The notes under the pieces were generated by a model, which was not told the DNA's origin, did not search any database, and saw only the letters and a list, made by a program, of their open reading frames with translations. Below are positions 2,882 through 26,423 of a DNA stretch of 28,420 nucleotides, one piece after another; positions within the stretch are counted from its first letter, which is position 1; every line of letters begins with the position of its first letter. Source of the DNA: a virus; IMG/VR virus record IMGVR_UViG_3300042261_000798, positions 1-28,420 of that record, one strand, 5' to 3'. The translations under genes and the position numbers were made by a program.

Positions 2882-3234
2882 TATAATATGTTTAAATCCT
2901 TCAACAAGATATTTATACATTCCTTGTGTTTGGTTTTGAGAAATGGGGTTTTTGTTAATTCCCTACCAACTATCACCATTTTCTGTCTACTTGTTAAAAT
3001 GTCTGAATTGTTAATGCCGTAAAACTTGAGTAGCTTTTTAAACATCAATGTTCTGAATTTAGCATCGGTTGATTGTTCTAAAAACCTAGCAACTATCTCA
3101 AGTATAGGTTTTAAGTCTTGATCTATGTGTTTTAAAGCATCAATAACTTCCAACATCTTTTCATTTGGAATAGGGTCAATTTGCTCAACCTCTGCTTTAA
3201 ATAATTCATTATCAAGTTTCTGTTTTATGTCCAT
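2881..3234 (-). CDS. Hypothetical protein, first gene of a late operon
   Basis: A 117-residue, mostly helical, mixed-charge protein without recognisable motif, signal peptide or membrane segment. The start is well supported: GGGGAGA lies five bases before ATG. A TATAAATA octamer sits 24 bases upstream at 3259-3266, making this the promoter-proximal gene of the minus-strand late operon. Its stop overlaps the next start as TAATG. The gene is divergent from the UvsY-like genes, with only 50 bases between the two starts. I do not recognise the family. Confidence 0.7.
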   Translation of the reverse strand: MDIKQKLDNELFKAEVEQIDPIPNEKMLEVIDALKHIDQDLKPILEIVARFLEQSTDAKFRTLMFKKLLKFYGINNSDILTSRQKMVIVGRELTKTPFLKTKHKECINILLKDLNIL

Positions 3235-3258: not shown

Positions 3259-3266
3259 TATTTATA
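3259..3266 (-). promoter_or_regulatory. T4-type late promoter TATAAATA
   Basis: An exact late octamer on the minus strand, 24 bases before the 117-residue gene. It lies in a TATAATA/TATTATA inverted repeat within the 50-base divergent region shared with the UvsY-like operon. Confidence 0.7.
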
Positions 3267-5652: not shown

Positions 5653-6736
5653 AAAATTCCAAAATAATTCTAGATACACCATTAGTGCCGTTTCACAAGG
5701 AAAAAGGATAATTATTAAGCCAGGTGAAATTGTATCTGGACCAGACGAACTTTCGCAGTATAATGGTCTAGCGGAGGTGACTAAAAAGACATCGTATAGC
5801 ATGGATATAACACCTATGAATATTTTAGATATGAATAGAGCCGAAGTAGATGCTACTATTGATTTAGTCAATAACCTAGACACTACTAAGTCATATACTG
5901 GTTATCAAAAGAAACCAGAGCATAAGACATTTTCTATTATTACATTAACACACAATAAGAAAACTTATATAGATATGCTTAATACTTTAAAGATACAAGA
6001 AACTAATAGTACCTTTGAGTTAATCCCCGTCTTTAATCATCAAAATGAATTCAAAAGTTGTGCTCAAGCATTAAATCATGGAATGTCTCTTGCTAACAGT
6101 GATTATTATATTATTACACACCAAGACCTTTTGGTTCCTAAGTATTGGATTCAAAAATTCAAAGAACACTTTGACCGATTCGAAAAACAACACACTAAAT
6201 TAGGATTTATTGGAATTGCTGGAACTGGAAAAACTGGTAAAGCATCATCATCCGACTATGGTGCTTTATATCTCTCAAACTCTTCTGCAAGTATTACTGG
6301 AAGAGATATTACCTTTGCTACCATGATGCGACAGCAATGGGGTTCTTATAAAGAAGTACAATGCTTAGATGAATGTGCTATGGCATGTAGAGCAGATTTG
6401 GGTATTAAATACGATGAGGTTAATTTTGACCATTATCATTTTTATGGTGCCGATATTTGCCTTTATGCTATTAGTAAAGGATATAAAAATTTCGCAATTG
6501 ACTCTGATTGTATCCATCTATCTGATGGTCAACAAAATCTTGTTCATCCCGCACACCAAAAATCATTCCTAGAGCATGGGTCTAGATTGTTTAAAAAGTG
6601 GAGAGACAAAATACCTTACTTTAGGACTACAACATCAGCATTCTATGGACCTGAGAAAATATGGTCGCCTTTAATCTTTCAAGATGTTAATAGAAAATAT
6701 GGAACTAAAGTTCCTTTGGAGATTCGTGTCATGTGA
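5645..6736 (+). CDS. GT-A fold (family 2-like) glycosyltransferase
   Basis: A 363-residue protein with a GT-A nucleotide-sugar domain. FSIITLTHNKKTY (about 96-108) is the first beta-alpha unit. SDYYIITHQDLLVPKYW (about 152-168) carries a DxD-like metal site (H-Q-D). DECAMACRADLGIKYDE then DHYHFYGADICLYA forms the acceptor-side half seen in family 2-like enzymes. Residues 1-60 form an extra N-terminal segment of unknown role. The start overlaps uvsW by eight bases and has only a weak A-rich ribosome binding site, so coupling is likely. Together with the second glycosyltransferase and the deoxysugar genes it suggests that the phage glycosylates DNA, virion or host surface; the acceptor is unknown. 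Confidence 0.8.
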   Translation: MFKKFQNNSRYTISAVSQGKRIIIKPGEIVSGPDELSQYNGLAEVTKKTSYSMDITPMNILDMNRAEVDATIDLVNNLDTTKSYTGYQKKPEHKTFSIITLTHNKKTYIDMLNTLKIQETNSTFELIPVFNHQNEFKSCAQALNHGMSLANSDYYIITHQDLLVPKYWIQKFKEHFDRFEKQHTKLGFIGIAGTGKTGKASSSDYGALYLSNSSASITGRDITFATMMRQQWGSYKEVQCLDECAMACRADLGIKYDEVNFDHYHFYGADICLYAISKGYKNFAIDSDCIHLSDGQQNLVHPAHQKSFLEHGSRLFKKWRDKIPYFRTTTSAFYGPEKIWSPLIFQDVNRKYGTKVPLEIRVM

Positions 6737-7041: not shown

Positions 7042-7049
7042 TATAAATA
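7042..7049 (+). promoter_or_regulatory. T4-type late promoter TATAAATA
   Basis: An exact late octamer 20 bases before the ATG of the 758-residue gene. Transcription would begin about six bases downstream, giving a very short leader (AGTAGCAAAGTAGC repeat) without a clear Shine-Dalgarno sequence. Confidence 0.6.
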
Positions 7050-11114: not shown

Positions 11115-12222
11115 TGTCTTCCTTTATTGATAACTGATATAATTCTGTAAGTATAGTTTTAAGATTATTTTTGTCAATACCTTCTTCCTCAACAAGAACG
11201 GAATTAACATATTCATTCATAAATCCTAAAGAATCGGTTGCCTTACCAACTGAATGTTGATGCTTCTCAAGAAGTTGTTTGGCTTCATCAGTTTCAGCTA
11301 TATCCTCAATAACTTGGTTATCTATTTCAAGCTTTATTGGTTGTAAAGATTCAACTTTTTGAATCAATTTAATAAGAGATGATTCTTGAACCTTTCTTTC
11401 AATAATAAGTTTAACGAAATTACCCTTCGCTTGTTTTATTTTCTCAACATCCTTATTAACGAAATCCTCAACCGTTAACTTAATGAATTTTGGTGAATCC
11501 TCGTTTGGAATAAAAGTAGTTTCGTTTGTATCAACATCGTAGATGTGAATACCCTTTATATCCCCGTAGTCACCCCATGTTAATTGATATGGGCAACCTA
11601 AGTAACTAATTCTTCCATCTGTTGATGTATTTCTAATATGGAAATGTCCAGAGAAAACACGTTTAAAATTCTTAAAAGTACCTTGTGTTACTCCGTGTTC
11701 AGCGGGATACCCTCTTTGCATCTCAAACCCATTAATTTCAAAATGCCCTAAGCAGAGGTCATATTTAGTCTCACCAGAAGAAAACTGCTTGAATTTGACT
11801 TCTGCCTCGCTCTCTGGGGATAACCAAGGGAACATGATAACCTTTTTGGTCCCTATAGTCTCTTCGGTTACTTTATCAATAATAGTGACATTAACATATT
11901 CTCTCAAAGCTTCAATTGAGTTAACATCAATTCTATTATGATAATATTGATCATGGTTTCCAACGAGAATCTTCCATTTAACTTGAGGAAGTTCTTTTTG
12001 ATACCAACGGAACACAGCGAGAACCGAATTTAAAGTTCTAACATTAATATTATTTCTATTATCAAAAAGATCACCTAATATTCTCATATCGGTGATCTTC
12101 TGCTCCTTTATAACTTTGTAAAGGGTTTTATAGAAAAATTCGTCAATAATCGCAAGATATTTTTCACTATTAGTTTTACAACCATAATGAATATCTGAAA
12201 TTAAGCCTATCTTATGGGACAT
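11107..12222 (-). CDS. 47: gp47 recombination nuclease subunit (Mre11/SbcD-like)
   Basis: The metallophosphoesterase partner of gp46. At 371 residues it is close to T4 gp47 (339). The phosphoesterase motifs are present in order: ISDIHYG (8-14), GDLFDNR (about 50-56), GNHDQ (about 93-97), and GHFHIRN (about 196-202). The C-terminal part is helical and would bind the gp46 coiled-coil base. AGGAG lies seven bases before ATG. The gene leads gene 46 with an eight-base overlap, so the two subunits are translationally coupled. A possible promoter is present in the 55-base gap behind gene 55. Confidence 0.96.
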   Translation of the reverse strand: MSHKIGLISDIHYGCKTNSEKYLAIIDEFFYKTLYKVIKEQKITDMRILGDLFDNRNNINVRTLNSVLAVFRWYQKELPQVKWKILVGNHDQYYHNRIDVNSIEALREYVNVTIIDKVTEETIGTKKVIMFPWLSPESEAEVKFKQFSSGETKYDLCLGHFEINGFEMQRGYPAEHGVTQGTFKNFKRVFSGHFHIRNTSTDGRISYLGCPYQLTWGDYGDIKGIHIYDVDTNETTFIPNEDSPKFIKLTVEDFVNKDVEKIKQAKGNFVKLIIERKVQESSLIKLIQKVESLQPIKLEIDNQVIEDIAETDEAKQLLEKHQHSVGKATDSLGFMNEYVNSVLVEEEGIDKNNLKTILTELYQLSIKEDNG

Positions 12223-17965: not shown

Positions 17966-17973
17966 TATTTATA
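17966..17973 (-). promoter_or_regulatory. T4-type late promoter TATAAATA
   Basis: An exact late octamer on the minus strand, 18 bases before the start of the 325-residue gene. Confidence 0.7.
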
Positions 17974-22287: not shown

Positions 22288-22329
22288 AAAAATTAAACCC
22301 CTTGAGGAATCTCAGGGGGTTTAATTTTT
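22288..22329. terminator. Bidirectional terminator between 32 and the endonuclease gene
   Basis: A 19-pair stem (22288-22306 with 22311-22329, one G-T pair) with a four-base loop. The core is AAACCCC/GGGGTTT, and T tracts leave on both strands. It ends gene 32 rightward and the endonuclease gene leftward. Confidence 0.92.
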
Positions 22330-23048
22330 GCCGCTATAAATCCATAGCATTTTTTTATTCTTTTAGCCACCAAATTACATATGCAACTATAAGTATATCC
22401 ATTATCAATACAAAATTGCTTTAGGTTTTCCACAACTAATTCCTTACCGTCTTCTGATGAAAGAATATATTCCTTCTTTTTCTTTTCTTTTTTTAAATTA
22501 CTCATTAATAATTTCGTTTCAATTGAATGGGTTTTCCCAAAAAAACCATTCTTTGTCCCCTTATGTGATTCTTTAATTTTTTCAATATGATTTTTCTTTA
22601 ATTTCTTTCCTAATTTTCTTAATCGCATAATTTTCTTAGATTCGTCGGTATGGTGTCTCCTAAAGAAACCATTATTTTTTCCAAAGAGAACTGGTGGATT
22701 TTCTCCACCCAATGTGGTATTTGTTAGTATTCCACCATCTTCTATTCTTTTCAATTCGGAAATTATTTCACCTTCAATTTTTAATGCCATTTCATTAGAT
22801 AAATTTTTGTAAATAATAACAACATCTGGGTTTTTATCCGTTTCTTCAATTATGCTTTTAATTTTTGTTGCTTTTCTATTATTCTCTTTTGAAAGGATTG
22901 AATATTGAAAATGATCAGCATATCTATAATCTTTTCCTTTTCCAACATAAAAAGGAACATAATCAAACTCAAAATTTCTAAAAACGAAAGTTTGTTTTTT
23001 TCTTGTATCTAAAATCAAATAAACATAATATCTGGTGTCATTACACAT
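22293..23048 (-). CDS. GIY-YIG homing endonuclease
   Basis: A 251-residue free-standing homing endonuclease. The GIY-YIG domain covers about 1-115: YVYLILD (8-14), FYVGKGKDYR (33-42), H46, the catalytic acid in IEGEIISE (91-98) and N110. Two NUMOD3-like DNA-binding units follow: GKNNGFFRRHHTDESKKIMR (123-142) and KNGFFGKTHSIETKLLMS (about 166-183). A C-terminal helix-turn-helix-like region (NLKQFCIDNGYTYSCICNLV) comes last. Such genes spread by cutting phages that lack them. It sits between gene 32 and the deoxysugar genes. It has a late octamer, and its ribosome binding site AAAGGA lies in a long hairpin. Its last codons and stop lie in the shared terminator. Confidence 0.9.
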   Translation of the reverse strand: MCNDTRYYVYLILDTRKKQTFVFRNFEFDYVPFYVGKGKDYRYADHFQYSILSKENNRKATKIKSIIEETDKNPDVVIIYKNLSNEMALKIEGEIISELKRIEDGGILTNTTLGGENPPVLFGKNNGFFRRHHTDESKKIMRLRKLGKKLKKNHIEKIKESHKGTKNGFFGKTHSIETKLLMSNLKKEKKKKEYILSSEDGKELVVENLKQFCIDNGYTYSCICNLVAKRIKKCYGFIAAKIKPPEIPQGV

Positions 23049-23102
23049 AAAAATTTAATCCTTTAATCAATATTTATAAACAATTCAAAGAATTAAATTT
23101 TC
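23049..23102 (-). promoter_or_regulatory. Hairpin hiding the endonuclease ribosome binding site
   Basis: On the minus strand, GAAAATTTAATTCTTT (23102 to 23087) pairs over 16 positions (two wobble pairs) with AAAGGATTAAATTTTT (23064 to 23049), which holds the ribosome binding site and ends at the ATG. The 22-base loop contains the late octamer. RNA from upstream would fold and block translation. Late RNA would start near 23065 and lack the left arm. Confidence 0.75.
23071..23078 (-). promoter_or_regulatory. T4-type late promoter in a hairpin loop
   Basis: An exact TATAAATA on the minus strand, 22 bases before the endonuclease ATG, inside the loop of the ribosome-binding-site hairpin. Confidence 0.7.
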
Positions 23103-23128: not shown

Positions 23129-24142
23129 ATGAAAAATCTAATAGTTACAGGGGCTTGTGGTTTTATCGGTTTAAATTTCCTAAAGGAACTTAAAAACATT
23201 AGAAACCAATACAAAGAGATAATTTCCATCGATAGATTAGATTATGCTACCGAATACAATATAGAAGAATATAGAAAAACTTGCGCCAATTTAAATATCA
23301 TTAGAATTGATGGAGACATTAATAACATCACTAGTGATATTATGAGTTTATTATCTTTTGATGTTCTTAACTTCGCCTCTGGTAGCCATGTTACTAAAAG
23401 TCTATACACATCAGAGGTTTATAAAGAAAATGTCCACTTAGTCCCAAATCTTATTGATAGAATTGGTTTTAAAAACATTGAAACCTTTTATCACATTTCA
23501 ACTGATGAAGTTTATGGTGAAATTGCTCTAGATAAAACAGGTCAAGAAAACTGGTTTACTCCAAATACTCGAATTTGTCCAAATAACCCATATTCAGCAA
23601 GCAAGGCTGCTCAAGATTTATATTTAAATGCTATGAAGCACACTTATGGAATGGATGTGAAGTATATTAGATTAGCTAACCAATTTGGACCTTGGCAGCA
23701 TCCAGAAAAAATGTTTCCAAAGTCAATTCTTAGATCATTTGATGGACAACCAATTCTAATTCACGGTGATGGAAGGCACATTAGGCAATGGACCCCCGTT
23801 GTGAATAGTGTGAAGGTAATTAGAGATTATATTTCTGGTAAACTTCCTTATAGAGATGTGCTTCATATTGCAATGAAGCAGCCATTAGTAAATAACCTTA
23901 CAATAGTTGAAGAATGGATTGATATACTCAAGAACCACTTTGGAACAGAAGCAAGATTTGAATTCATCCCAGACAGATATGGTAACGATTCAATGTATGC
24001 TCTCAGTACCGATGCTGATGTTGATTTATACTTTGAAACACCAGTTTACTTAGAATTCAAGAATACAATAAGGTTTTATAAAGATAACTTGGCTCTTTAT
24101 AATAAAGCAGAAAGCCAACACTTAAAAGCGGGAGTACAATAA
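23129..24142 (+). CDS. rmlB: NAD-dependent sugar-nucleotide dehydratase, RmlB-like
   Basis: A short-chain dehydrogenase-type enzyme of 337 residues that probably converts an NDP-glucose to the 4-keto-6-deoxy sugar, as dTDP-glucose 4,6-dehydratase does. The NAD site is GACGFIG (8-14). FASGSHVTKS (82-91) resembles the RmlB SHVD-S segment. The catalytic T125-D126-E127 in STDEVYGE and Y155-x3-K159 in YSASK are all present; the T-D-E triad separates dehydratases from simple epimerases. AAGGAG precedes ATG. Its stop overlaps the next start as TAATG, and the partner has the later steps of the pathway. The exact sugar is not shown by the sequence. Confidence 0.82.
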   Translation: MKNLIVTGACGFIGLNFLKELKNIRNQYKEIISIDRLDYATEYNIEEYRKTCANLNIIRIDGDINNITSDIMSLLSFDVLNFASGSHVTKSLYTSEVYKENVHLVPNLIDRIGFKNIETFYHISTDEVYGEIALDKTGQENWFTPNTRICPNNPYSASKAAQDLYLNAMKHTYGMDVKYIRLANQFGPWQHPEKMFPKSILRSFDGQPILIHGDGRHIRQWTPVVNSVKVIRDYISGKLPYRDVLHIAMKQPLVNNLTIVEEWIDILKNHFGTEARFEFIPDRYGNDSMYALSTDADVDLYFETPVYLEFKNTIRFYKDNLALYNKAESQHLKAGVQ

Positions 24143-25410
24143 TGGAAACAATACCATTTGATTTAATCCACAATTGGTGGAATGGAAAAGTTAAAGTCAG
24201 AAAAATGAAACCATATGAAGATGGAAGAGGTTTACTTGGTGAAATAATTAGACCAGATTCCGACTCATTTAAAAATTTAGTTAATACCTACATTAGTGAA
24301 ACTAAGCCATTTATTCAAAGAGGACCACATGAACACAACCTCCAAGATGATGATTTTATAACTTGGAATTCAAGAATGATTTATGAATTCTATGACCCAG
24401 AATCAAAAGAATCAAAATATTTTATTACGGAACCAAAAGGAATTTACAGTCTCTATGTGGAGCATGGTATCCACCACGGCTATAGAAACTTAGATGCCAT
24501 TGATACAGCTTATACCTTAAATAGTCTTAATAGACCTTTTAAGGGATTTGGAAGAAACGACGAACCAGATGAAATTCGTCACGAAAAGAAAACAGTAAAT
24601 AATAAAATTTTATTTATTTTTGGTGCTGGTGGTAGATTAGGTAAATCTTTAACTGAAGTTGCTTTTAAACAAATGGGAGAACACACATACGATGTTATTC
24701 CTTATTTTGATAAGCTTCTTAGTATAGCTGAAACTGAAGCATTCTTTAAGGCACTTGATTATGCCTTACCAAACAGAGATATAACCTTTGTAAATTGTGC
24801 TGCACTTACTAACACAAAGGACTCTGGGCCACTTAATGCTGAGTGGAGATGGTCTAATGTCAATCTACCACAACTTTTCGCAAATAAATGTGCCGAAAGA
24901 AATTGGAAGTTTGTTCAGCTATCAACAGATTATGTCTATCAAGAAGTTAAAAAGGGTATTGTGAATTTTTATGTTAGTACATATACTCAATCTAAAAAAG
25001 AGATGGAAAGTATATTAAATCAAACAAACGGTATTCATTCTCTTTCAACTACGGTACTTAGAGTTTCAAATCTTTTTAGTCAAGCACCCGAAGATGTTAA
25101 TGTATTCACCAGACTCCAAAAGATAATTGACGAGAAAGGTGGTATAACAGTTGACCCAGAACTTGAAATTGCTCCAACTGATGTTGATAAACTCAGTTTA
25201 AAGATAATCAATCTTTTTATAGAGGGATTTTTCATTATTAATGGTATTAAATATGTTAATGTAATTTCGCCATCATATAAAGTTGATGAATTTGTTTATA
25301 AGTTCCTTAATACCAAAGACAAAGTGGTTGCTTGCGAGAGCGGCAAGATAAATCCGTGGGCAAATTCATTTAAAAATGATCCTTACGCAATCAAAATTAA
25401 CTTGGATTAA
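24142..25410 (+). CDS. RmlC-like epimerase fused to RmlD-like reductase
   Basis: A 422-residue, two-domain protein. Residues 15-140 form an RmlC-like cupin (4-keto-sugar 3,5-epimerase): DGRGLLGEI (27-35), R60-G-P-H63-E-H with the catalytic-type histidine, and VEHGIHHGYRNLD (106-118). After a short linker, residues 153-422 form an RmlD-like reductase: KILFIFGAGGRLGKSL (155-170), STDYVY (261-266) and Y281-x3-K285. In bacteria these are usually separate proteins. With the preceding dehydratase the pair could make a deoxysugar such as dTDP-rhamnose from an activated hexose. No RmlA (thymidylyltransferase) is in the window, so the substrate may come from the host. The two glycosyltransferases here are possible users. 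Confidence 0.8.
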   Translation: METIPFDLIHNWWNGKVKVRKMKPYEDGRGLLGEIIRPDSDSFKNLVNTYISETKPFIQRGPHEHNLQDDDFITWNSRMIYEFYDPESKESKYFITEPKGIYSLYVEHGIHHGYRNLDAIDTAYTLNSLNRPFKGFGRNDEPDEIRHEKKTVNNKILFIFGAGGRLGKSLTEVAFKQMGEHTYDVIPYFDKLLSIAETEAFFKALDYALPNRDITFVNCAALTNTKDSGPLNAEWRWSNVNLPQLFANKCAERNWKFVQLSTDYVYQEVKKGIVNFYVSTYTQSKKEMESILNQTNGIHSLSTTVLRVSNLFSQAPEDVNVFTRLQKIIDEKGGITVDPELEIAPTDVDKLSLKIINLFIEGFFIINGIKYVNVISPSYKVDEFVYKFLNTKDKVVACESGKINPWANSFKNDPYAIKINLD

Positions 25411-25421
25411 AATTTAAGGAG

Positions 25422-25429
25422 TATAAATA
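25422..25429 (+). promoter_or_regulatory. T4-type late promoter before the membrane gene
   Basis: An exact TATAAATA 18 bases before the ATG at 25448. RNA would start about 25435, at the last base of the left arm of the hairpin at 25431-25445. Confidence 0.65.
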
Positions 25430-25430
25430 T

Positions 25431-25445
25431 GGCTCAGGTAGAGCC
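25431..25445 (+). promoter_or_regulatory. Hairpin at the start of the membrane gene
   Basis: GGCTC-aggta-GAGCC, a five-pair GC-rich stem ending two bases before ATG, with the only SD-like bases (AGG) in the loop. It can form in RNA read through from the deoxysugar operon but not in late RNA that starts at its left arm. Confidence 0.55.
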
Positions 25446-25447
25446 AT

Positions 25448-26098
25448 ATGAAACTTGAGTTAGAAACATTAATTCCGTTATTACTAATTGGGGCTTTTGT
25501 TGCTACTATATATTTTAATAACTCAACCCCATCGGTGTCGCCTAATGGTTTTGCTGTTGTAAAGCCAACTAAAGATATACAAATCATAAGAGACACAGAT
25601 GATATTAAAGAAGACGATAATAAAGTTAAAATCACACATGTCGATCATCCAGAAGATGCTCTTAATTTTCGCCTTTGGCATGATTATGTCTTGCTCCCTA
25701 TGGGAGAGGACGGAAAGCCCCTCATCCCAACCAGAAAAAACGAAGACGGAACAACAACACCAATCTGGAAAATTGACATCACAAGGAAAGAATATATCTT
25801 CGACCCAGGATGGGACTTCGGGGCATACGCAGGATACCTTGGGGGATCAAAAGAAGGAACCGAAGTCAAAGACTTTGACGTTGGACTCAGAATCTCCCCA
25901 CTCCGCATCTGGAACACCTTCGCCGTTGATGGACTCGTCTCAAATCAAGCCGCAGGGGTCGGAATCTCCTGCTACCCAGCCCCAGCAAGATACGGAGAGT
26001 TCTGGAATCATGTGGGGTTTGGTTATGGTCGCGTTATTTCTTATGACGATGACTCTCAAAGAAATCTATTCTTCTTCTCACTCTCTACGAGATTTTAA
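25448..26098 (+). CDS. Membrane-anchored or exported late protein, unknown function
   Basis: A 216-residue protein with one N-terminal hydrophobic segment (about 7-24: TLIPLLLIGAFVATIYF), which may be an anchor or an uncleaved signal. A polar region (25-75) and a Gly/aromatic-rich part follow (about 110-216, with alternating residues: GWDFGAYAGYLGGS, VGFGYGRVIS), ending in the aromatic STRF. The last part looks like short beta strands, as in small barrel proteins. It stands between a late promoter and a holin-like gene, so a lysis or envelope role is plausible but unproven. Bases 25680-26000 are much richer in C-ending codons than the neighbours, and the +1 frame is fully open there. Confidence 0.75.
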   Translation: MKLELETLIPLLLIGAFVATIYFNNSTPSVSPNGFAVVKPTKDIQIIRDTDDIKEDDNKVKITHVDHPEDALNFRLWHDYVLLPMGEDGKPLIPTRKNEDGTTTPIWKIDITRKEYIFDPGWDFGAYAGYLGGSKEGTEVKDFDVGLRISPLRIWNTFAVDGLVSNQAAGVGISCYPAPARYGEFWNHVGFGYGRVISYDDDSQRNLFFFSLSTRF

Positions 26099-26423
26099 TA
26101 AAGGAAAAAATATGAGTATAGACATTGAAAAAATGGAAAGCTTCGTCTCCCAAGTTAAGGGAATGAAGTCCCCTCGTTGGGCATCAAGAAAGATGCTCGT
26201 TACTATGGCCGTGGTTGGTGCCTTAATTTGGTTGTTTAAAGGTTCTTTAGCAACCATTCTCTGGCAAGTAACTGGTTTAATTGGTCTTTGGTTGCTTTGT
26301 ACTACCGCAATCGATATTGCTGAAAAGCACTATCAGAGTCAAGTCAAATTAAAGGTGTTAGAAAACCTTTCTAAAGATGGATTGACTAAAGAAGAAGTTG
26401 AAGTCGTTGAAAAAATGACTTAA
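25638..26423 (+). other. Candidate overlapping lipoprotein-like frame
   Basis: In the +1 frame relative to the 216-residue gene, ATG at 25638 begins MSIIQKMLLIFAFGMIMSC, which has the shape of a lipoprotein signal peptide (I-M-S-C lipobox). About 100 Ser/Thr/Pro/Gln-rich residues follow, then a hydrophobic stretch (GIMWGLVMVALFLMTMTL). The frame stays open into the downstream membrane gene, so any product would be a 261-residue fusion. No good ribosome binding site is seen before 25638. It is listed as a hypothesis, not as a gene. Confidence 0.2.
26112..26423 (+). CDS. Small two-helix membrane protein, holin-like
   Basis: A 103-residue protein with AAAGGA seven bases before ATG. Two hydrophobic helices (about 26-41 KMLVTMAVVGALIWLF and 46-65 LATILWQVTGLIGLWLLCTT) are separated by a short turn. 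The N-terminus is charged (MSIDIEKMESFVSQVKGMKS), and the C-terminus is hydrophilic and charged (QSQVKLKVLENLSKDGLTKE). This is the size and layout of many class II holins, but other small membrane proteins look the same. It follows the 216-residue late gene by 13 bases, so the two are probably expressed together. No endolysin gene is in the window. Confidence 0.8.
   Translation: MSIDIEKMESFVSQVKGMKSPRWASRKMLVTMAVVGALIWLFKGSLATILWQVTGLIGLWLLCTTAIDIAEKHYQSQVKLKVLENLSKDGLTKEEVEVVEKMT

Follow-up and report, generated by a model that had tools for sequence, protein, structure and literature searches.

A lipoprotein-like reading frame nested in a phage membrane-protein gene and continuous with a holin-like gene

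We identified an open reading frame, nested in the gene of a predicted membrane protein and continuous with the holin-like gene that follows it, in a 28.4-kb stretch (28,420 nt) of an IMG/VR virus record, a T4-like environmental phage; the whole stretch is referred to here as the window. The DNA at 25599-26098 very likely encodes two proteins, one in frame 0 and one in frame +1; this is inferred from the sequence, and translation has not been shown. Frame 0 belongs to a 216-residue protein (25448-26098) with an N-terminal membrane anchor, a beta-rich domain and a C-terminal Phe. The +1 frame forms a single ORF of 274 residues from the ATG at 25599 (25599-26423), which carries a predicted lipoprotein signal, a linker, a transmembrane (TM) segment and then the entire sequence of a 103-residue holin-like protein (26112-26423; two TM segments, charged ends), as the overlap and the holin-like gene share one frame. 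All of these features, and the others of the cassette described below, lie on the plus strand. The +1 ORF is kept open in three homologues (the window, L083 and L002), and the constraint on both frames is supported directly by their sequences. The full explanation that we prefer, which joins dual coding, a read-through chimera and a late spanin-like cassette, is one that the evidence as a whole modestly favours.

Genomic context and relatives of the cassette

The window carries a T4-like replication module (DNA polymerase, UvsX-like recombinase, gp41-like helicase, gp32-like protein, sliding clamp and clamp loader), in which the 216-residue and 103-residue holin-like genes are placed between sugar epimerases and the sliding clamp. 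L002 was found via its clamp loader and L083 via a degenerate DNA pattern for DPGWDFG, with amino-acid identities in the 216-residue protein of 57% and 69%, respectively; both genes align with that of the window without gaps and are followed by the same holin-like gene. A further relative, L112, was found via an 88-residue neighbour protein and is located in a 143.7-kb contig, where the gene order is gp32, a 210-residue homologue (E 4e-41), a holin-like gene and the clamp. L112 is the outgroup in every gene compared. Its homologue carries the same domain end to end, without a large insertion and with ordinary codons (third-base T 43%), while 11 stops interrupt the matching part of its +1 frame and its holin-like gene lies in a frame other than that of the window's +1 arrangement. 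L112 shows the state of the locus without the nested lipoprotein, an absence that is evident in the sequence itself; gain of the lipoprotein in the clade is the likelier course than its loss in the outgroup, though this is unproven.

A filter for nested lipoproteins was passed by the genes of the window, L083 and L002 only (about 942 kb, 102 loci and the window), and no other nested lipoprotein was found in the 102 loci. Searches by tblastn with five cassette queries and three sliding clamps recovered no credible cassette homologue in 50,697 phage records, there was none in the genome contigs searched, and the holin-like protein, used as a probe of viral contigs, gave no match. The nested frame is the sole convincing lipoprotein in the window and L083 contigs. 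Of the small intact genes in the 143.7-kb outgroup contig, only the 216-like and holin-like ones have clear TM helices, and a six-frame scan (L117-L124) gave no convincing lipoprotein, though the contig may be incomplete. This contig may represent a spanin-less relative. No endolysin was recognised near the cassette or in the scanned part of the outgroup contig, not every gene of which was scanned. As a separate observation on the neighbourhood, a nucleotide-sugar epimerase/RmlD-like gene pair lies between gp32 and the cassette (23129-25410 of the window; L108); it is present in the window and L083, absent at that place from L002 and L112, and adjoined by a homing endonuclease, and it is possibly an inserted block.

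No cassette protein matches a known family. The frame 0 product is predicted to be a type II membrane protein with a beta-rich domain that is periplasmic or outer-membrane-like, a topology that has not been shown. Its anchor lies at about 25460-25516, with a hydropathy of 1.8-3.4 at residues 3-23 in the four homologues and a soluble or beta domain next, and a low-confidence AlphaFold2 model (52) has a helix at residues 2-25 and then strands. The protein ends in Phe with alternating hydrophobic residues, and fold searches of both products returned nothing significant, only weak matches to outer-membrane barrel-like folds. It has no conserved Cys: there is one in the window (residue 175) and none in L083 or L002. 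The short holin-like product is conserved in the four phages and, as in holins, is small with two TM segments and charged ends; it has no match in PHROGs, Pfam or the PDB, known holin families included.

Composition and constraint of the second frame

The +1 product begins with a predicted lipoprotein signal peptide (25599-25691) that has a Lys-rich n-region, a hydrophobic core and IMS before the lipobox Cys (25692-25694); the string KMLLIFAFGMIMSC is present in the window. A Ser/Thr/Gln/Pro-rich linker follows (25695-26000), which is the same stretch as a low-T segment of C/A-ending codons in the main frame, and then the first TM segment (26001-26057; hydropathy 1.92 in the window, 1.69 in L083 and 2.28 in L002). 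The S-C-S end of the lipobox, the polar linker of ~103 residues and the TM stretch are common to all three +1 frames, which all run in frame into the holin-like gene, giving an extension of 171 residues upstream of the short holin-like protein. By codon alignment, the Cys is kept through different codons (TGC in the window, TGT in L083 and L002) despite main-frame changes of Leu to Val and Leu to Phe. With synonymous codons redrawn, the hydropathy of the linker is 7.3 sd below expectation in the window (reported z -7.3 and -4.6); the L002 linker is the less polar (71% polar residues vs 88%), and contains one Cys where those of the window and L083 contain none. The +1 similarity between the window and L002 beyond that arising from shared codons was not significant, and the linker is therefore conserved in composition and not in sequence. 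An AlphaFold2 model of the +1 product was of low confidence (45) and, like that of the main protein, was used for gross secondary structure only, in which the linker is disordered and of low complexity. The charge and TM pattern of the chimera fits one topology, with the lipid outside, the first loop inside, then a hairpin, and the C-terminus inside. The hydrophobicity of the signal (z 1.0-1.8) and of the TM segment (z 0.96-2.2) relative to main-frame expectation is on its own no strong evidence for selection on the +1 frame, because the main frame predisposes the +1 frame to it.

We counted as a stop opportunity each Leu, Val or Ile codon at which a synonymous change creates a +1 stop. In the overlap, stop-making codons were used at 0/17, 0/23 and 0/17 such sites in the three homologues (0/57 in total), as against 34%, 39% and 41% in other genes and 5/10, 7/12 and 6/9 in codons 1-49 of the gene itself, before the overlap begins. 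The sites span 25 codon columns, and counting each column once gives P of about 6e-6. When synonymous codons were redrawn from the phage's own usage, the probability of a stop-free +1 frame in the window was 0.0011-0.00125, and under a null that keeps the third-base composition of each segment it was <=1e-4 in the window and L083 and 5e-4 in L002. The L002 clamp-loader comparison was misaligned, in the wrong frame, and was left out as evidence; it involves few codons and hardly affects the pooled background.

Codon composition changes along the gene in register with the predicted parts of the +1 product. In the window, third-base T falls from 39% in codons 1-49 and 54% in codons 50-77 to 11% in codons 78-185, where third-base C reaches 41%, and returns to 48% in codons 186-216; elsewhere in the window, genes have about 41% T and about 15% C. 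The best-fit low-T segment covers codons 85-186 (25700-26005), with 7.8% T inside and 46.5% outside, and the corresponding segments in the two homologues cover codons 80-186 and 81-182. As the Cys is codon 82 and the TM stretch runs from about codon 185, in all three the segment's start lies no more than 3 codons from the lipobox Cys and its end no more than about 4 from the beginning of the TM stretch. Such a segment suits a polar linker, because third-base T in the main frame is second-base T in the +1 frame, and hence a hydrophobic residue.

Divergence between the window and L083 is also reduced at third positions in the linker (0.23 differences, vs 0.42-0.56 in other genes), without a reduction at first and second positions. 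The same codon is kept at 60 of the 76 conserved degenerate residues of the linker (79%), compared with 50-61% in seven larger or adjoining genes and 42% in the short holin-like gene. The more distant pair of the window and L002 has the openness and the compositional shift, but little excess codon identity. Separately, in the holin-like gene (26112-26423) T/C changes make up an unusually large share of the third-base differences from L083 (17 of 25), and its codon identity is low (0.42) relative to all other genes.

These results bear on an original prediction, which had proposed a +1 frame open throughout from a start at 25638; the openness held, and the start was corrected to 25599 upstream, which adds the Lys-rich n-region. 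Its description of a lipoprotein-like signal, then a Ser/Thr/Pro/Gln-rich part and a hydrophobic part held as well, with the Cys placed as above, as did its observation that the frame runs on into the holin-like gene; the ORF extends to 26423. The proposed shift from T/A- to C/A-ending codons at about 25680-26000 was confirmed with slightly different borders, and its attribution to selection on the second frame is supported by the openness, the third-position conservation and the outgroup. Three results would have counted against the prediction. Stops were absent from the +1 frames of the two homologues that share the compositional shift; synonymous change was reduced between the window and L083, though not clearly against L002; and the possibility that the C-rich segment is a domain insertion failed, given that this domain is present in L112 with no large insertion, its codons there are ordinary and the +1 frame is closed. 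The alternative origin it had named, a transferred segment with foreign codon use, was likewise rejected on the outgroup, which has the same gene and the same neighbours with normal codons. The inference of dual coding remains limited to three sequences, all of them metagenomic contigs, and one outgroup.

Late control and translation starts

A T4-type late promoter box, TATAAATA, lies at 25422-25429, 19 nt upstream of the start codon of the 216-residue gene, and a box is also present before the L083 gene. Six of the nine such boxes in the window sit 19-26 nt upstream of a same-strand start codon, where 0.18 would be expected. The others in this position (2019-2026, 3259-3266, 17966-17973 and 23071-23078 on the minus strand; 7042-7049 on the plus strand) are likely late promoters of flanking genes, including that of a GIY-YIG/NUMOD3 homing endonuclease (22293-23048).

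The box overlaps the 5' arm of a hairpin (25427-25449; -13.2 kcal/mol, z -4.4) that covers the ribosome binding site and start codon of the 216-residue gene; the loop contains the Shine-Dalgarno, and the stem the start codon. L083 has the same promoter-hairpin layout (5979-6002, minus strand; -9.9 kcal/mol), and this layout is plainly seen in the sequence. The late-start form of the leader folds at only -1.4 kcal/mol, on an assumed and not mapped transcript start, and the leaders of five other late-promoter genes have no such hairpin and none stronger than -3.1 kcal/mol. L002 instead has a terminator-like hairpin (3038-3070) ahead of its 216-like gene; such hairpins, directly upstream of this gene in L002 and in L112 (about 11265-11300), separate it from gp32. 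In T4 genes e, soc and I-TevI, folding silences the early read-through transcripts, while late transcripts lack the 5' arm (PMC3014915; PMC2988022), and in gene e this control prevents premature lysis. By analogy, and from sequence alone, the arrangement points to late, lysis-type expression.

A separate Shine-Dalgarno precedes the holin-like start in the window, L083 and L002 (AAAGGA at 26100-26105 in the window, -5.6 kcal/mol; -8.7 in both homologues). The lack of a clear ribosome binding site that had been remarked for the +1 start holds only in part: the window has a weak AAGAGA (-2.9), L083 a strong AGAGGAG 6 nt before the ATG (-8.6 kcal/mol), and L002 an AAAGGA at long spacing (-5.6). 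Stops in the +1 frame occur just upstream of the +1 start in all three.

Proposed function, alternatives and known systems

We hypothesize that the T4-type promoter would switch the cassette on late, that, as in T4 gene e, the hairpin would keep frame 0 from being translated on early read-through transcripts, and that the late transcript, without the 5' arm, would escape this block. Frame 0 would then supply an inner-membrane anchor with a beta-rich domain in or across the periplasm, and frame +1 a lipoprotein whose polar linker is long and disordered and is followed by a TM helix. As no stop intervenes in three diverged phages, a ribosome starting at the lipoprotein would continue through the holin-like gene, and a lipoprotein-linker-TM-holin-like chimera is very probably the product if the +1 frame is translated at all; the short holin-like protein would also be produced, with translation beginning separately at 26112. 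It is possible that the chimera is tolerated and not used, since it would not be surprising for the final 14 or so codons to lack a stop by chance. The combination of late control with three products, a type II membrane protein, a holin-like protein and a lipoprotein capable of reaching the outer membrane, is best read as a lysis cassette, and we consider such a role the better supported possibility. In a spanin-like role, inner and outer membranes would be linked, with the lipoprotein as the outer-membrane partner, and the outer membrane disrupted at lysis; on this point we regard the evidence as evenly balanced. Translation, lipidation, outer-membrane sorting, the spanin role and use of the chimera are all inferred, with no expression data, and the outer-membrane steps presuppose a host with an outer membrane, the host being unknown.

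Among the alternatives, one holds that dual coding is real but that the lipoprotein has a different function in the envelope, for instance in excluding superinfection or protecting the infected cell. Lipoproteins of this sort are known from phages (T5 Llp, lambda Cor). The lack of a recognised endolysin beside the cassette and a linker with little sequence conservation beyond composition are in its favour. We consider it unlikely given the T4-lysozyme-like combination of late promoter and hairpin control, the fusion and adjacency of the lipoprotein to a holin-like protein, and the spanin-like nesting in a type II membrane-protein gene. Similarly unlikely is that the +1 product alone is a unimolecular spanin (u-spanin) like T1 gp11 and the main protein an unrelated envelope protein, perhaps an anchored outer-membrane beta-barrel. 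The topology of lipid anchor, linker and TM helix and the lack of a conserved periplasmic Cys fit u-spanins (PMC6139136), and the Phe end, alternating hydrophobics and weak barrel fold matches fit the proposed main protein. Against this, u-spanins end at the TM helix whereas the +1 frame goes on through two further TM segments, and the T1 gp11 family has a beta-rich periplasmic domain where the linker here is disordered and of low complexity (at low confidence).

It is very unlikely that there is no second protein, and that the odd codons reflect transfer, mRNA structure or translation speed with the open frame as a side effect. C-ending codons do by themselves lower the chance of some +1 stops, and only three sequences are available; but the composition-keeping null still gives P <= 0.0005 per sequence, the outgroup carries a native version of the domain that is homologous over its full length and uses ordinary codons, the segment borders match the lipobox and TM segment in three diverged phages, and third positions are conserved without the same at positions 1 and 2. 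Entry into the +1 frame by programmed frameshifting from the main frame (main anchor with a +1 tail), for which only the weak Shine-Dalgarno of the window's +1 start speaks, is as improbable, as it would make the conserved lipoprotein signal and Cys pointless and disregards the strong L083 Shine-Dalgarno and the +1 stops just upstream of the start in all three.

Returning to the preferred reading of a lysis cassette, the suggested link to nested Rz/Rz1 spanins is a good analogy: as in lambda, a +1 lipoprotein frame lies inside the gene of a type II inner-membrane protein, the lipoprotein is polar and Pro/Ser-rich, and a holin-like gene is nearby. The i-spanin-type feature of an N-terminal TM segment and then a periplasmic C-terminal domain is met, by predicted topology, as is the o-spanin-type feature of a lipoprotein signal with S-C-S in the other frame of the host gene, in three homologues. 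Unlike Rz1, however, the nested frame has no stop inside its host gene in any of the three, holds a TM segment and extends across the holin-like gene. Its start falls at about 0.23 of the gene length, where 0.4-0.5 is typical of embedded spanins, and the main protein is beta-rich, without detected sequence similarity and without a conserved Cys, whereas periplasmic Cys for disulphide-linked dimers are reported as near-universal in embedded two-component spanins (PMC6139136). T1 gp11 u-spanins share the N-terminal lipobox, periplasmic linker and TM helix, and the window and L083 linkers, but not that of L002, lack Cys as well; the difference lies in the location of the +1 frame inside another gene, the disordered linker and the two holin-like TM segments after the first. 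As in lambda S107/S105, long and short products would come from one frame with both starts upstream of the holin-like TM segments, though the extension here is 171 residues with a lipoprotein signal, compared with two residues. The overlap of the TATAAATA promoter with the 5' arm of the hairpin resembles T4 gene e, except that a membrane-protein gene and not a lysozyme is controlled.

Because the frame does not end in the host gene and the TM segment is not the protein end, we file the cassette in neither the embedded-spanin nor the u-spanin family; if its function is confirmed, it would be a new variant among nested phage lysis lipoproteins. A bolder reading, which we entertain without quite endorsing, is that a new lipoprotein-linker-TM unit arose in this clade by overprinting, in the +1 frame of a membrane-protein gene that was already there, and lengthened the downstream holin-like protein at its N-terminus by 171 residues. 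If this is true, the cell would make two versions of the holin-like protein, a short one and a long one tethered to the outer membrane, and a single polypeptide would combine permeabilisation of the inner membrane with disruption of the outer.

The origin of nested spanin genes is open. A published survey found no spanin family in which some members are embedded and others are not, and offered only as speculation the idea that loss of a stop codon gave lipoprotein spanins their C-terminal TM segment (PMC6139136). Here, four phages share one host gene and one gene order, three with the nested lipoprotein and one without, and that origin becomes testable since the set holds three phages with a TM-bearing, stopless lipoprotein beside one that lacks it. 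Gene callers will miss nested lipoproteins of this kind. More generally, the locus is a clear case in which the topology of the protein in one frame has shaped, segment after segment, the codon choice of the other.
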